A DNA stretch of 32,170 nucleotides, from positions 724-32,893 of IMG/VR virus record IMGVR_UViG_3300030116_004053; one strand, 5' to 3'. The notes under the pieces were generated by a model, which was given only the letters and a program-made list of their open reading frames with translations, had not been told where the DNA came from and made no database searches. Position numbers and translations under genes: made by a program. This document shows positions 2,463-32,170 of this stretch, piece after piece; the first letter of the stretch is position 1; the number at the start of each line of letters is the position of its first letter. The stretch comes from a virus.

Positions 2463-2876
2463 ATGGCAGTATTTAATGGAACAAATTTATTGTTAAAAGC
2501 TATTACAAGTGGTGGTACATTAGCAACTATTGGTCACACAACATCAGCATCAATGTCTTTAAGCATGGACACACCTGATGCAACTAGCAAAGATTCATCA
2601 GGTTTTTCTGAGTTTATTGCTGGAGTTAGAAGTGGTGAGATTTCTTTTGAAGGATTAGTTGACCATACTGATGCAGCTGGGTCTGATGCAATTTCTGGTT
2701 ATTTAGTTAACAGAACTAAAATTGACTGGTCATTTTCAACTGGCACAACTGGTGATGAAATTTATTCAGGAAGTGGATTTATTTCTAGTTGTGAAATTTC
2801 AGCTGAAATGGAATCACCTGTAACATATTCAGGCACTATAACAATAACTGGTACAATTACACAAGGAACTAATTAA
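2463..2876 (+). CDS. Major tail tube protein (TP901-1-type family)
   Basis: 137 residues with the family layout: NGTNLLLK strand, IGHTTSASMSLSMDTPDATSKDS, a GFSEFIAGVRSGEISFEGLVDH core, an IYSGSGFISSCEI loop and a final alternating Thr/Ile strand (TITITGTI). It is the compact, canonical version of the pair and has its own candidate promoter, so it is the likelier major tube protein, present in many copies per tail. It is followed by a hairpin and then the tail assembly chaperone gene, the classic order tube, chaperones, tape measure. Confidence 0.82.
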   Translation: MAVFNGTNLLLKAITSGGTLATIGHTTSASMSLSMDTPDATSKDSSGFSEFIAGVRSGEISFEGLVDHTDAAGSDAISGYLVNRTKIDWSFSTGTTGDEIYSGSGFISSCEISAEMESPVTYSGTITITGTITQGTN

Positions 2877-2940: not shown

Positions 2941-3315
2941 ATGGCAAATAAGAAAAGAGGTTATTACACTATTAAAATGGGTGGTAAGAAAAGAACCATG
3001 CATTTTTCTATGAACTTTTGGTCAAACTTTACAGATGACCTAAACATTCCTTTAGACAAACTTGGTGATATATTTTCTGATGGTGTTGCATTATCAACCA
3101 TTAGGTCATTGATATATTCTGCATTATTAGCTAATGACCAGGAAAATAAATTACTAATTGACTATGATAAATTTGATGTCGGTGTTTGGATGGAAGATTT
3201 AGAAAATGATGATTTAGATAAAATAGTTGCAGCAATGATGGAATCTAGAATATTAGGCAATGATTTAAATGCTGGTATGGCAAGGAATGTCAAACAATCA
3301 ACCAAGGGAAAGTAA
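2941..3315 (+). CDS. Tail assembly chaperone, short form (gpG-like)
   Basis: 124 residues, mostly helical after a short beta N-terminus, with no catalytic motif. It lies between tail tube and tape measure, the position of lambda G and its functional analogues, which coat the tape measure during tail assembly. Its last two sense codons, GGA AAG, are part of the heptamer G GGA AAG (3306-3312), which is followed immediately by the TAA stop. Without frameshifting the product ends here; with a -1 slip it is extended into the frame ending at 3656. The position and heptamer, not sequence similarity, give the identity. Confidence 0.82.
   Translation: MANKKRGYYTIKMGGKKRTMHFSMNFWSNFTDDLNIPLDKLGDIFSDGVALSTIRSLIYSALLANDQENKLLIDYDKFDVGVWMEDLENDDLDKIVAAMMESRILGNDLNAGMARNVKQSTKGK
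3306..3312 (+). promoter_or_regulatory. Programmed -1 ribosomal frameshift site GGGAAAG
   Basis: The heptamer G GGA AAG is in the X XXY YYZ register relative to the upstream gene and is identical to the slippery sequence of the phage lambda G/T gene pair. The zero frame stops at the very next codon (3313-3315), while the -1 frame stays open for 114 codons. Confidence 0.85.
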
Positions 3316-3656
3316 ACACCCAGCTGACTTGGGATTCACTAATTGATTATTATGTAGGTCAAGCTGGGATAACACCAAATGATTTTTGGTTAAACACTTG
3401 GAAAGAGAATCACTTACAAGGCGAATCATGGCAATTAAAAGAAAATTTAGAGTGGGAAAGAATTAGGTATTTAAGTACCATGATTTATAATGTCAATTGT
3501 CAGAAAAAATCACAAATGATTAGACCTGATAAATTATTCCCATTACCACAGGATGTATATTTAGAGAGAGGTAAACCACAATCCACAAAAGAACAAATGG
3601 AAGCATTTGAAAAAAGAGTTGCTAAAACTAAATTTGACAAAAAACTAGAACTTTAA
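3312..3656 (+). CDS. Tail assembly chaperone, frameshift extension (gpGT-like, made as fusion from 2941)
   Basis: In the -1 frame, reading from GTA at 3312 gives 114 residues with no stop until TAA at 3654-3656. The segment begins VNTQLTWDSLIDYYVGQAG and ends FDKKLEL. It has no convincing start codon near its 5' end, so it is expected only as a fusion of about 238 residues with the 124-residue protein encoded from 2941. In lambda the T part of gpGT recruits the tail tube protein to the chaperone-coated tape measure, and the same role is inferred here. It sits directly upstream of the tape measure gene, as in lambda-like tails. Confidence 0.85.
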   Translation, partial: VNTQLTWDSLIDYYVGQAGITPNDFWLNTWKENHLQGESWQLKENLEWERIRYLSTMIYNVNCQKKSQMIRPDKLFPLPQDVYLERGKPQSTKEQMEAFEKRVAKTKFDKKLEL

Positions 3657-3663
3657 TTATTTG

Positions 3664-3686: not shown

Positions 3687-6323
3687 ATGGCAGATAATAA
3701 ATTAAGGTTTTTTCTTACAGGTGATTCTAAACAGTTTCAACAATCATTAACACAAGCAGAAAATAAGCTAAAAGCATTTGGTTCTAAGTTGTCAAGTGTT
3801 GGTCGTAGCATGACTATGTTTGCTGCACCTGTTGTGGCAGCTGGTGTTTCATCTATAAAGATGGCAGCTAGTTTTGATAAGTCAATGACTAAAATTAAAA
3901 CTTTAGTTGGTGAAGCATCTGATAAAGTTGATGACATGAGAGCTGGTGTTATACAAATGGCAAAAGATACTGGGTCTAGTGCTGATGAAGCAGCTGAGGC
4001 ATTGTTTTTTATTACATCAGCTGGTATAAAAGGTAAAGAAGCCATGAAGGTTTTAAATGCATCTTTGAAAGCTAGTGCTATTGGATTAGGTGATGTCGCT
4101 ACTGTTGCTGATAGTGCAACCTCAGCCATGAATGCTTATGGTAAAGAAAATTTATCAGCTACTATGGCAACAGATGTTTTAACAAACTCTGTTAGATTGG
4201 GTAAATTATCTAGCGAAGAATTGGCTGGGTCTATTGGTCAAGTAATTCCAATAGCCTCTAACTTAGGTGTTGAATTTCATGAAGTTGGTGCAACATTGGC
4301 AGCCATGTCTAGAACAGGTACAAATGCTGCAACAGCATCTATGCAGCTTAAAAACATTCTTATTTCAATTTTAAAACCATCTAAAGAAGGCGCTGAAACA
4401 CTTGAAAAAATGGGATTGTCAAGTCAAAAGCTAAGACAACAAATTAAAGAAAAAGGATTGCTAAATGTTTTGACAACATTAAAAGGTAGGTTTGAAGAAA
4501 ATGAAGATGCACAAGCTAAGGTATTTGGTAGTTCTAGAGCATTGATGGGGGTTATGGACTTATTAGGTAAAGGATTCAAAGACACAGAGAAAATATTTGC
4601 TGACATGGCTAATAGTGCTGGAGTTACAGCAGAAGCATATGAAGAATTACAGAATAGTGCTGAGTTTAAGTTGAGAAAAGCAATGACTGAGGTTAAAGAA
4701 ACATTTAGAGAGACTGGTGCAACATTAATGGAAGCATTGTTACCAGCAATACAAATGGCTGCTGAATTTGTTAAAAATTTACTTGAACGATTTAATGGGT
4801 TAAGCACAAATACTAAGAAATTTTTTGGCATTTTAACAATGGCTGCATCTATAATTGGACCTTTTTTAATTGTTTTAGGTAGTGTTGTGAGTGCAATCGG
4901 TACTTTAATTGGTGGACTTAAAGCAGCTAGAATTGCAATGATAGCATTTAATACAGCAGTAAAAGCTAATCCATATATAGCAGCTGCAAGTGCAATCATG
5001 GCTATTGCTAGTGCAATTTTTATGGTTGGTAATGCTAGAAAAAAAGCTAGGTTAGAAGAATTTAACGCTGAATTAGGCACAATGACTTTAGAAGAAGCTG
5101 AAAAAGCAACCATTGATTTATCAAAACAAATAGATGAACAGAATGCAAAAATAAAACACCTAACTGAAAATAGAAGCAGAAACAGAAGGGGTGCTGCTAA
5201 TGGCATAAGACAAGCTAGAGAAGAAATTGAGGTTTTAAAAGAACAAAAAAATAGTGTTGACAAGTTAATTAAGTCTAAACAAGAAATGATTGAAATGATG
5301 AAAGTTGACCCTCTAGATGTGCCTCAGATTGATTTAGGTACTGGAGACAATGATACTGGTCCTTCTGCTTCTGAAATAGCATCAATGACTGCTAAGGCAA
5401 TATTGACTACTAAAGAAAAACAATTTGCAGCAGAAATTGCAGCTACAAAAGCACATTATGATAATCTTAAAAAACTTAATGAAGGGAATGCTGAAGTGCA
5501 ACAGCAATTAGAAATTTCTAAAGGTGAAAAATTAAAAGAAATATCCGATGGCTATTATGCTGGTTTAATAACAAATCTGCAATCATTTTTTGATAAAAGG
5601 GATTCACTACAAAAACAAGTAGAAGATGCAGCAGCAGTCACAGATGAACAAAGAAAAGCATTAGAAATACAAAGGACCAGAGAATTTTATACAAATCTAA
5701 TAGAACAAGCAAAACAGTTTAATTTAGATTATTCAATGCTTAACGAAGCAATGTTATTAAAAATTAAAGAAATAACAGATTCAATGACTGAACAAACTAC
5801 AACTTTTGCATCTGCTCAAGAAAATATTAATGAAGTTTTAAAAGGCAGTTTCAGCAGTTTAGGTAATCAATTAGCAAACACATTTGGTAATTCAGGAACT
5901 ATATTCGGTGCATTTTTATCAAACTTTTTACAAACAGCTACAAGCATTATGGCAGCTAATTTAGCAACATCACAAGCTGATGCTACAAAAGGTGCTACTC
6001 AAACTGCTTTAAGTTTTGGTCCAGCTGCATCATTTGTATTACCAGCATTAGTAGCTGGTGCAATTGGTGTTGTAACAAAAGCATTTAGTGGTATAAAGAA
6101 ATTTGCAAGTGGTGGTATTGTTAGCACACCAACAATGGGTTTAATGGGTGAATATCCAGGTGCTAGAAGCAATCCTGAAGTTATTGCACCTTTAGATAAA
6201 TTAACTGGTATGATAGGTGGCACACAATCTAATGTTCAAGTTGGTGGTGAATTTACATTAAGAGGTCAAGATTTAGTAGTTGCTTTACAAAGAGCAGATA
6301 GAAACAGAGAAAGAATTAAGTAA
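3687..6323 (+). CDS. Tail tape measure protein
   Basis: 878 residues, the second-longest gene. Residues 1-300 match the TP901-type tape measure pattern: long Ala-rich helices with SFDKSMTKIKTLVGEASDKV, TGSSADEAAEALFFITSAG and an ASMQLKNILISIL segment. Hydrophobic stretches at about 379-413, 428-449 and 778-800 fit the membrane-inserting parts of tape measures that help DNA enter the cell. Coiled-coil regions lie at about 455-540 and 570-720. The C-terminus has the familiar SGGIVSTPTMGLMGE and NPEVIAPLDKL motifs. Length sets tail length; at about 1.5 angstrom per residue this predicts a tail near 130 nm (inference). The TAA overlaps the next ATG. Confidence 0.92.
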   Translation: MADNKLRFFLTGDSKQFQQSLTQAENKLKAFGSKLSSVGRSMTMFAAPVVAAGVSSIKMAASFDKSMTKIKTLVGEASDKVDDMRAGVIQMAKDTGSSADEAAEALFFITSAGIKGKEAMKVLNASLKASAIGLGDVATVADSATSAMNAYGKENLSATMATDVLTNSVRLGKLSSEELAGSIGQVIPIASNLGVEFHEVGATLAAMSRTGTNAATASMQLKNILISILKPSKEGAETLEKMGLSSQKLRQQIKEKGLLNVLTTLKGRFEENEDAQAKVFGSSRALMGVMDLLGKGFKDTEKIFADMANSAGVTAEAYEELQNSAEFKLRKAMTEVKETFRETGATLMEALLPAIQMAAEFVKNLLERFNGLSTNTKKFFGILTMAASIIGPFLIVLGSVVSAIGTLIGGLKAARIAMIAFNTAVKANPYIAAASAIMAIASAIFMVGNARKKARLEEFNAELGTMTLEEAEKATIDLSKQIDEQNAKIKHLTENRSRNRRGAANGIRQAREEIEVLKEQKNSVDKLIKSKQEMIEMMKVDPLDVPQIDLGTGDNDTGPSASEIASMTAKAILTTKEKQFAAEIAATKAHYDNLKKLNEGNAEVQQQLEISKGEKLKEISDGYYAGLITNLQSFFDKRDSLQKQVEDAAAVTDEQRKALEIQRTREFYTNLIEQAKQFNLDYSMLNEAMLLKIKEITDSMTEQTTTFASAQENINEVLKGSFSSLGNQLANTFGNSGTIFGAFLSNFLQTATSIMAANLATSQADATKGATQTALSFGPAASFVLPALVAGAIGVVTKAFSGIKKFASGGIVSTPTMGLMGEYPGARSNPEVIAPLDKLTGMIGGTQSNVQVGGEFTLRGQDLVVALQRADRNRERIK

Positions 6324-28516: not shown

Positions 28517-31500
28517 ATGGGTACTACATTAACTGGCAAAAGAGTTCAAAATACTTATGATTCACTTTTAAAATTATCAGACAATGATAACCTTACTGGA
28601 GTAGCTAAAATTGTGGGTGATGGTCTTGGTAATAATTCACCTATATATTTAAGTACAACTCAAGTTGGAATTGGTGTTACACCATCCTATGAATTTCATA
28701 CTAACTCACATGCTAAGATTGGTGGTAATTTAATTGTTGGTGGTAATCTAACAGTTGATGGTACAACTACTATTGTTGATTCAACAGTTGTTGCTATTGG
28801 TGACAACATGATTGAATTAGCAAAAGATAATGTAGCTAATGTAAAAGATATTGGATGGTATGGCACAATAAATTCTAGTGGTGAAAAATATGTTGGAATG
28901 TTTTATGATGCATCCGATGGTGTTACTGTACCAACATTTAGAGTTGGTTTAGGCACATCTGAGCCAGGTTCTACAATGACACTAACCACTAAGGGTAAAT
29001 TAGTAATTGGTGGTTTAGATGCGACCACAGGAACATTTAGTGATGATTTAAATTTAAGTGATAATTCTGAATTACATATAGGGGATAATGCAGATTTTAT
29101 AATAAAACATGCTGGAACTAATACTACTATCAATCAAAAAACAGGTAATTTATTAATTTACCAATTACAAGATGATGGTGATATAAGATTTTTTAGTGAT
29201 GATTCTAATGGTGCTACAACTGAATATTTTAGAATAGATGGTGGTGTAGTGCAAAATAGAGTATTTCAAAACATGCGTTTTCAAGACAATGTTGAATTGC
29301 TTATAGGGACTGGTTCTGATTTAAGAATATATCACGATGGTTCAAATACTTTTTTACAAAATAGCACAGGTTCACTTGTTATCGAACAAACAAGTGGTGC
29401 AATAGCTTTACGACCAAAAACAGGTGAAAGTGGTGTGCTAATTATTGAAGATGGTGCAGTAGAACTTTATCACAATAATATTAAAAAGTTAGAAACAACA
29501 AGTTCAGGAGTTACAATTACAGGTGAACTAGAATTAGGTGATGGAACTGCAAACAAAATTCAATTTATTGGTGGACAAGGTAATTGGAGAATGAATATTA
29601 GTGATAGCGCAAATCAATTTGTTATACATTCTGAAAGTTTAGCTGCCGACTACTTTACAGTTATTGGTGGTGGTGGCATAAAGCTTAATGCTTATGGCTC
29701 AGGAAACAAAACAGGTACTATTGCAAAAAACTTAGCTGTTGATTCGAGTGGCAATATTATTGAAACAGATGGTGGTTTAGTCGATGGTAGTGGTACAGCT
29801 AATGATGTAGTAATGTGGTCAGATAGTAATACATTAACAGATGCACCAATAGCTATAAGTGGCAATGATGCAACCTTTGAAGGCAATGTAACAATAGATA
29901 ATACATCTAGTGGTGATGCAACATTAACACTAGTTACTACAACAGGTGGCGACCCTACAATAATATTTAATAGTGATGCTGCTAATAGAAGCGGATTAAT
30001 TAGGTATCAAGACAATGGTACTAATATAGGAAGAATTGAATATCTGCACAATGGAGATACATTAGCAATACAAGCAGGGTCAGCAACAGGTGCAACTTTA
30101 GAAGTAACTAATACTTTATTATATGTAAATGATGAAATAAGAGTTGGTACAAGTTCAGGTGCAGTAAATCAAACTGGAATAGTAAAAGAAAGTGGTACCA
30201 CCTATGGTTTAGGTTTATTTACTTGGGCAGATACAGCACCAATACAAATTGGTGGGGGTAGTGTTCTAATACAAAAAGAATCAGGTGCATCAACTAATTT
30301 AACTGTATCTGGTAATATTAGTGCTACAAAAGGATTTTTTACAGCTACAAATAATCAAATATCAATTGTTGATAGTGATGATAATCAAGATTTTAGATTA
30401 CAAACTAATCTTGGTAAGTTTAGTATTAAGGACCATACAAACACACAAACTATATTAAAAATAAATGCTAATTCTGGTGCTGATTCATTAGTAATAAGCA
30501 GTAGTGGTGCAGAATTTGGCAATAAAATAAGTGTTAATGCTGGGACAACTTTTGATTCAATGGTTACAATACAAGGTAATGAATCAGGTGGACAAACAGC
30601 TACATTTTTACATTTAAATTCAGGTAACAATACAACATTATATCCATTCTTAGCAACCTTAAATAATGCTGATATAAGTTCAGCAACATATGGTTGGTTA
30701 TTTGTAAACAGTAGTGTAAATGGTAATTTTGAATTATATAGACAAAATAATAGTTCTACAGCAGTCAAAGTTTGGGACATATCCAGGTCAACAGGTAATA
30801 TAACTTTTTCAGAGGATATACAAGCCGATAATATTGGTTTAGGAACATCGGCAGTATCATTTGGAACAGGTGTGCCAACTTTATTATTTAAAGGAACAAA
30901 CTCAACAAATGGTCGTGCTGGGGCATTATATTTTAAAGAAAATGATGGAACTGATACTGCTGCACTATATGTTACAGATGGCAATGATGGATATGGAACA
31001 GTTTTAACAGCTTATCAGGGTAGTTTAAAATTTGCAACAGGTAGTTTAACAGGCACAGTATTAACTCTTGACCAGAGTAACAATGCAACTTTTGCAGGTC
31101 AAAGTGTAAATATTTCACATAGTACAAATGCAGGTGCAGGTATGGGCTTAAATATAACCAATACAAACACATCTGGAAATAGTTTTGCAACAATAAATAT
31201 TGCAGGTGCTAATGGAACAGTAAACACACAAATATTTAGTGATGGTTCAGGAACAGGTGGTTTTGGTTCAGCAGGTGCAGTAATTAGAACAAGCACAAAT
31301 CACCCAATCTATATAGGCACAAATTCTACTACTGCCCTAACATTGGATACATCAGGTCGACAAGGATTAGGAACTGTTACTCCTCAAAAAACTTTACATA
31401 TTGAGGGCGAAACTGGTGCAAGTGCATCTCAATTATTAGTATGTGGACCTTCTGACACAATAGGACATACTGCTGGTATATTATTAAGAGCAGAAGGTGG

Positions 31501-32170
31501 TGAAGGAGATAGTTCATTAAGAGCAAAAGGGGGAATATTTTTTGAAAGAGAAGCAGCAAATGGATTGGGTAAATTACATTTATGTAATAACAACTCAAAT
31601 AACAATGATTCGGCTGATTTGTCAGATGCAGCATTGACAATAACACAAGATAAAAAAATTGGCGTAGGAACTACATTGCCTCAAAGTAGATTACATTTAT
31701 CTTCTACAGGTTTTAATGACCATATTACTTTAACTAGAAGCTCAGATGAATTAGGAATTTCAGTTTCGGCTGGGCAAATACTTGTAGAGGGTGGCTTATC
31801 ACCATTCAGTAATAGTGCAGAGAATTTAGGTAGGAGTGATAAACATTGGAGTGAGATTTATGTAGGTAGTGTGAGATCATCAGGTAATTTATTATTAAAA
31901 AGTAATGGCGACAATGTAAGAGTTATTATTGACAGTTCAGGAAATGTAGGTGTTGGAATGAGTACTACTCCTAGTTATAAGCTACAAGTTAATGGAACTG
32001 CTTATATTAATGAAACACTTTATGTTAATGGTGCAACTACAATAGATGCTGACTTAACAATTAGTGAAGCAAATGGTGAAATAAATTTCACTTCTGGCAA
32101 TGGATATGTTCAAACAACAACAGGCAGTACAAGTTTAGTTTTTGGTACTAATAGTACAGAAAGAATAAGA
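28517..32170 (+). CDS. Tail fibre, N-terminal part (partial, continues at window start)
   Basis: Open from ATG 28517 to the window end with no stop: 1218 codons, continued by 245 codons at 82-816 for a total near 1463 residues. The start MGTTLTGKRVQNTYDSLLKL probably docks the fibre to the tail. Then come beta-helix style segments: GNLIVGGNLTVDGTTTI, LRIYHDGSNTFLQNSTGSL, AVELYHNNIKKLETTSSGV and, near the end, VRVIIDSSGNVGVG. These are common in marine phage fibres ending in an S74 chaperone, which is found at the window's left end. Inferred trimeric receptor-binding fibre, the longest protein here. Antisense frames in this region are shadows. Confidence 0.9.
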   Translation, partial: MGTTLTGKRVQNTYDSLLKLSDNDNLTGVAKIVGDGLGNNSPIYLSTTQVGIGVTPSYEFHTNSHAKIGGNLIVGGNLTVDGTTTIVDSTVVAIGDNMIELAKDNVANVKDIGWYGTINSSGEKYVGMFYDASDGVTVPTFRVGLGTSEPGSTMTLTTKGKLVIGGLDATTGTFSDDLNLSDNSELHIGDNADFIIKHAGTNTTINQKTGNLLIYQLQDDGDIRFFSDDSNGATTEYFRIDGGVVQNRVFQNMRFQDNVELLIGTGSDLRIYHDGSNTFLQNSTGSLVIEQTSGAIALRPKTGESGVLIIEDGAVELYHNNIKKLETTSSGVTITGELELGDGTANKIQFIGGQGNWRMNISDSANQFVIHSESLAADYFTVIGGGGIKLNAYGSGNKTGTIAKNLAVDSSGNIIETDGGLVDGSGTANDVVMWSDSNTLTDAPIAISGNDATFEGNVTIDNTSSGDATLTLVTTTGGDPTIIFNSDAANRSGLIRYQDNGTNIGRIEYLHNGDTLAIQAGSATGATLEVTNTLLYVNDEIRVGTSSGAVNQTGIVKESGTTYGLGLFTWADTAPIQIGGGSVLIQKESGASTNLTVSGNISATKGFFTATNNQISIVDSDDNQDFRLQTNLGKFSIKDHTNTQTILKINANSGADSLVISSSGAEFGNKISVNAGTTFDSMVTIQGNESGGQTATFLHLNSGNNTTLYPFLATLNNADISSATYGWLFVNSSVNGNFELYRQNNSSTAVKVWDISRSTGNITFSEDIQADNIGLGTSAVSFGTGVPTLLFKGTNSTNGRAGALYFKENDGTDTAALYVTDGNDGYGTVLTAYQGSLKFATGSLTGTVLTLDQSNNATFAGQSVNISHSTNAGAGMGLNITNTNTSGNSFATINIAGANGTVNTQIFSDGSGTGGFGSAGAVIRTSTNHPIYIGTNSTTALTLDTSGRQGLGTVTPQKTLHIEGETGASASQLLVCGPSDTIGHTAGILLRAEGGEGDSSLRAKGGIFFEREAANGLGKLHLCNNNSNNNDSADLSDAALTITQDKKIGVGTTLPQSRLHLSSTGFNDHITLTRSSDELGISVSAGQILVEGGLSPFSNSAENLGRSDKHWSEIYVGSVRSSGNLLLKSNGDNVRVIIDSSGNVGVGMSTTPSYKLQVNGTAYINETLYVNGATTIDADLTISEANGEINFTSGNGYVQTTTGSTSLVFGTNSTERIR
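32090..32170. repeat. Right copy of the contig-end overlap
   Basis: Repeats 1-81 with a single difference: A at 32167 against G at 78, changing Met to Ile in the fibre frame. It marks the circular junction of the assembly. Confidence 0.9.

Follow-up and report, generated by a model that had tools for sequence, protein, structure and literature searches.

The window, by which we mean the whole stretch of 32,170 nucleotides analysed here (positions 724 to 32,893 of the IMG/VR virus record IMGVR_UViG_3300030116_004053), carries genes for a terminase, a portal protein, a prohead protease, an HK97-type capsid protein and a connector elsewhere on the contig, and by this gene content it is part of an HK97-like tailed phage known from metagenomes. 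Pfam and PHROG profiles gave the gene order tail tube, G, T, tape measure, with the overlapping pair of open reading frames (ORFs) G and T between the two structural genes (Table 1). The first 6.5 kb of the window, compared with phage records by blastn, yielded a tail-fibre match only, and no close relative was found in the phage record collection by blastn or tblastn. An Rfam search returned no family, and no tRNA genes were found. Two adjoining genes, 1951-2412 and 2463-2876, are both tail-tube-like (both phrog_1407, with a weak and a strong PF06199 match, respectively) and have perhaps arisen by duplication. At the other end of the window (28517-32170), a long ORF of at least 1218 amino acids runs off the end and has no Pfam match; given its position adjoining tail genes, it is perhaps a tail protein.

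Table 1. Positions of the G/T region in the window, with the supporting profile matches and pairing partners
Feature	Position	Strand	Remarks
Tail tube protein gene, 5' of G	2463..2876	+	PF06199 Phage_tail_2, E 3e-16; PHROG 1407 major tail protein, E 3e-25
G-like tail assembly chaperone, 124 aa, zero frame	2941..3315	+	phrog_2115; start ATG 2941
Slippery heptamer G GGA AAG, in register	3306..3312	+	Same heptamer as lambda
T-like extension, -1 frame, 114 codons plus stop	3312..3656	+	No own start codon near junction; phrog_16333
Zero-frame TAA, first codon after heptamer, within 6-nt spacer	3313..3315	+	Kept in surrounding clades
Predicted stimulatory stem, 5' arm CCCAGCT	3319..3325	+	6 nt after heptamer
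Inner stem, 5' side GACT	3326..3329	+	Pairs with 3357-3360; fold of window
Inner stem, 3' side GGTC	3357..3360	+	A3361 bulged
Predicted stimulatory stem, 3' arm AGCTGGG	3362..3368	+	Pairs with 3319-3325
Tape measure protein gene, 3' of T	3687..6323	+	PF10145, E 1e-30; phrog_1533 tail length tape measure, E 4.5e-72

The profile phrog_2115 ('tail protein') matches all 33 aligned members of the G family (best E 2e-10; window 5.5e-4), and phrog_16333 matches all 33 aligned members of the T family (best E 1.5e-10; window 3.9e-7). The predicted structure of G is a beta-hairpin plus helices (model pLDDT 68); fold matches to proteins named tail assembly chaperone reached E 0.025 or worse with this model, and a PDB fold search with G gave no match. 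Neither G nor T has a Pfam match above the cut-off, and tblastn with both proteins yielded no hit at E 0.001 in a set of 50,697 phage records. The likeness of G and T to named chaperone families is thus weak. Differences between near relatives lie mostly at the third codon position in both frames, as expected of two coding ORFs.

The zero-frame codons at the junction are ACC AAG GGA AAG TAA, and the first-pass annotation had correctly placed the heptamer at the last two codons of G, with the zero-frame stop as the next codon. It had also described the -1 frame as open for 114 codons without a start of its own: the frame begins with GTA at 3312 and ends with a stop codon at 3654-3656, and scanning it for ATG, GTG and TTG revealed none before the ATG at 3480. 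As that annotation anticipated, T would be missed by gene prediction based on start codons. The predicted GT fusion has 238 amino acids and a mass of 27.8 kDa, with the junction ...TKGKVNTQ..., which agrees with the earlier estimate of about 27 kDa and a GKVNTQ junction peptide. The heptamer by itself is not significant, since two copies of GGGAAAG were found in the window against 2.7 in shuffles; the second copy, at 3454, lies inside T and out of register. What goes beyond chance is the place of the heptamer (in register, at the end of G and opening the -1 ORF) and its conservation. Among 34 cluster representatives in which GGGAAAG abuts the stop, the Gly codon is always GGA, the Lys codon always AAG and the preceding codon always G-ending, against a background use of 14% for Gly-GGA, 18% for Lys-AAG and 14% for G at the third base; these codon statistics are descriptive, since the heptamer was itself the criterion for this class.

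Scans of IMG/VR and of GTDB genomes (MAGs) for distinct loci carrying both G and T yielded 222 relatives, and T lies in the -1 frame relative to G in all of them. GGGAAAG is in register in 138 of the 222, with the zero-frame stop at a distance of 0 (66 loci), 1 (20), 4 (8), 5 (24), 6 (19) or 9 (1) codons after it. The remainder include loci with A-rich heptamers and 13 with none; among the tree representatives, eight of 104 are without a canonical heptamer. The earlier note had named close relatives lacking the heptamer but keeping separate starts for T as evidence against its reading. All close relatives of the window keep GGGAAAG, and the T frames of most relatives are without a usable start near the junction.

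Several groups of relatives depart from the window type. In seven loci (L024, L031, L034, L037, L042, L043 and L053) T is in the -1 frame with no X XXY YYZ heptamer in the overlap; here GGCAAAG aligns with GGGAAAG, leaving an A_AAG tetramer only. One clade of about 40 distinct loci at offset 3 (examples are L149, L207, L209, L222, L228, L236 and L239) has a run of nine A residues in place of GGGAAAG and the stem described below; the mechanism here may be -1 slippage on A AAA AAA or slippage during transcription. Four loci (L036, L050, L052 and L057) have an A-rich heptamer abutting TAA or TAG and a different predicted hairpin (TTGGGA.../...TCCCAA) 3-4 nt downstream, possibly a separate route to an abutting stop. 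Finally, a relative of the G/T pair occurs in a contig binned with a Woesearchaeota archaeon MAG (L162, PBPJ01000031.1), which is probably a misbinned phage contig.

A hairpin following the slip site, which the first-pass annotation had missed, probably promotes the slip, as judged from its folding energy, spacing and covariation. The 60 nt after the heptamer in the window fold to -18.2 kcal/mol, with a z-score of -3.6 against dinucleotide shuffles. Because both arms of the stem consist of T codons, synonymous-codon shuffles were also used; they gave a z-score of -5.2 for the window and a mean of -3.3 over 43 loci, compared with -0.3 to -0.6 in four control windows of the same ORFs. The outer stem of 7 bp shows standard pairs in 301 of 301 cells over 43 distinct aligned sequences, without a mismatch, and sliding the arms drops pairing to about 50% or less. 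Three of its pairs are altered on both sides, including one swap between G-C and C-G (22 versus 21 sequences) and another pair that occurs as A-U, G-C or G-U; the covariation score of the outer stem is 0.371, against 0.195 +/- 0.016 when shuffled. The conservation of the stem partly overlaps that of conserved codons, an overlap addressed by the synonymous shuffles and the coordinated changes. The register of the inner stem differs between relatives. A pseudoknot found no support, since pairing of the loop with the 3' region is no longer than in synonymous shuffles (4.98 against 5.14 bp).

Leaving out the offset-6 class, 117 of 119 loci have a helix of at least 6 bp at a spacer of 4-8 nt, compared with about 10% of shuffles. 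For a stricter test the geometry was fixed, with the heptamer and the protein motif GQxG as anchors of the arms and six outer pairs scored. At a spacer of 6 nt, all six pairs form in 63 of 66 offset-0 loci and 7 of 8 offset-4 loci; at 5 nt they form in all 20 offset-1 loci and in 22 of 23 offset-5 loci, plus two offset-0 exceptions; at neighbouring spacers they almost never form. In total, 114 of 117 relatives with GGGAAAG, the offset-6 class left out, have the stem at 5-6 nt. The spacing of 6 nt in the window is within the canonical range of 5-9 nt between slip site and stem (PMC7618472). Pair changes were counted on a protein tree omitting the stem region, and the fixed-geometry counts replaced per-locus best-helix counts on this tree, which avoids a post hoc choice of pairs. 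The outermost pair changes 14 times on the 5' side, 13 times on the 3' side and 15 times jointly; sign tests on independent pairs did not reach significance, with too few starred branches. In the offset-6 class GGGAAAG is kept and the stem is absent (0 of 19), so that the stem is not needed throughout the family. Across the relatives compared, the hairpin is a more widespread component of the signal than the abutting stop.

These observations are best accounted for by a stem-aided -1 programmed ribosomal frameshift, which would very probably let a single start give rise to two tail assembly chaperones. Most ribosomes would translate G and terminate at the TAA directly after the heptamer. With the Gly (GGA) and Lys (AAG) tRNAs on G GGA AAG, the stem-loop 6 nt downstream would hold the ribosome at the mRNA entrance, and a minority of ribosomes would re-pair on GGG AAA and continue in the -1 frame to make the GT fusion. 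By analogy with lambda, G would coat the tape measure protein and the T part would recruit tail-tube subunits. Support at the level of sequence is given by the register of the heptamer, the -1 relation, the lack of a T start, the gene order, the conservation and the covarying stem at fixed spacing; from here we infer frameshifting itself, its rate, its stimulation by the stem and the chaperone roles. G_GGA_AAG is among the three most efficient heptamers when stimulators are present, in a ranking made in E. coli that may not be that of the host (PMC4066793). Related phage chaperone sites gave about 6-7% frameshifting in reporters (PMC3711429), and lambda needs about 30 G per GT (PMC5009743).

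The alternative that survives best, although we consider it unlikely, is that the shift is mainly post-translocational, with AAG in the P site and TAA in the A site, and that slow termination sets its rate, which would make the abutting stop a genuine element of the signal. GGGAAAG stands directly before the stop in 66 distinct loci, other heptamers also abut stops in a few relatives (A AAA AAA TAA in L036 and L050, A AAA AAG TAG in L057), and in Bacillus a shift on A_AAG produces an extended cytidine deaminase (PMC5009743). Clades were taken from the protein tree, and retention of the stop inside them was the only evidence on the stop that was used. All 38 GGGAAAG rows of the two largest clades that surround the window have the abutting stop, whereas at a conserved Val elsewhere in T at least 15 codon changes are counted among the 43 offset-0 rows; the stop is therefore retained. 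The universal GTA at T codon 1 was discarded as proof of selection for the stop, the argument being circular in loci chosen by their abutting stop. A second zero-frame stop in the window, TGA at 3325-3327, is near the stop position of the offset-4 relatives. Against a shift dependent on the stop, relatives whose stop lies 1, 4 or 5 codons further on have the identical heptamer and stem geometry, so that an abutting stop is not required, and slippage with AAG in the A site is already compatible with the 6-nt spacer. Since the stop offset differs among relatives that retain heptamer and stem, tuning of the product ratio by the abutting stop, as proposed in the first-pass annotation, is only a possibility. 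A combined scheme, to which we give a somewhat slimmer chance, is that the stop in the 6-nt spacer and the hairpin cooperate in the window's clade: termination would be slow under hairpin tension, and the Lys tRNA would slip from the P site. If this is true, release factor supply would tune the G:GT ratio, in contrast to lambda.

It is far less probable that T is a separate gene, translated by re-initiation or from a non-canonical start near the stop, with the heptamer incidental. The T frame contains CTG at 3324 and ATT at 3342, ribosomes commonly re-initiate after stops, and a few relatives have TTG or ATG 26-56 nt past the stop. However, ATG, GTG and TTG are absent near the junction in the window and in most relatives, conservation of the start of T extends back to the heptamer, and the heptamer is conserved in register with a stem at frameshift spacing. 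The idea that the -1 frame goes unexpressed, being a remnant of decay, a miscall or the product of an assembly indel, is hardly credible: beyond the missing start codon nothing was found in its favour, and it is strongly contradicted by sequence conservation, namely the -1 relation shared by 222 distinct contigs of many samples, the differences mainly at third positions and the phrog_16333 match of all 33 T members.

A stem-aided -1 frameshift would add a large group of uncultured phages to those with a chaperone frameshift of the lambda type, and in this group the covarying stem is a specific candidate for the element that determines the G:GT ratio. The relatives form a natural series, with one heptamer, stops at 0, 1, 4, 5, 6 and 9 codons, and a stem present or absent; with this series, the A9 clade included, the role of each signal element is open to testing.

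Phage lambda G/GT has the same arrangement: G GGA AAG, read in the same register, lies close to the 3' end of the upstream chaperone gene, T follows in the -1 frame, and the genes run in the order tail tube, G, T, tape measure. Lambda reads G GGA AAG followed by five sense codons and then TGA; hence the slip sites are identical, as had been claimed, and the stop is indeed tighter in the window, with no sense codons before it. The window also has a covarying stem at 6 nt (the stem was examined on the window's side alone), and the searches made showed no similarity of its G and T to those of lambda. The tail-chaperone genes of double-stranded DNA phages (Xu, Hendrix and Duda 2004; SEA-PHAGES TAC genes) resemble the window's pair in their position, in the -1 extension and in a heptamer near the zero-frame stop; slip site and stop are on average 26 nt apart in SEA-PHAGES and 36 nt apart in the Xu set (PMC10885494), in contrast to 0 in the window.

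In Cellulophaga phage phi18:2 and its relatives, gp54/gp55 is a syntenic pair (L321:1395-2106), both annotated as hypothetical proteins, and fold searches with G and with T both place phi18:2 proteins among the better matches. The gene order is alike, but an A9 run precedes the gp54 stop and gp55 is in the +1/-2 frame relative to gp54, and this pair is possibly an unannotated frameshift of another kind.

Bacterial signals such as those of E. coli dnaX and the IS3-family elements share with the window a heptamer followed, after a short spacer, by a hairpin. In dnaX, a Shine-Dalgarno-like element upstream of the slip site takes part as well; visual inspection of the stretch 6-17 nt upstream of the heptamer shows no such element in the window. 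Unlike these signals, the element of the window lies within a phage chaperone gene and has the zero-frame stop inside the spacer. A survey in E. coli sought hairpins 4-10 nt after the motif and predicted them in three of five phage clusters, one of them possibly relevant (PMC4066793). A hairpin element of the window's type is thus already known from other bacterial -1 signals, and the G/T pair of the window is, by its sequence features, a further case of the known lambda G/GT -1 frameshift.
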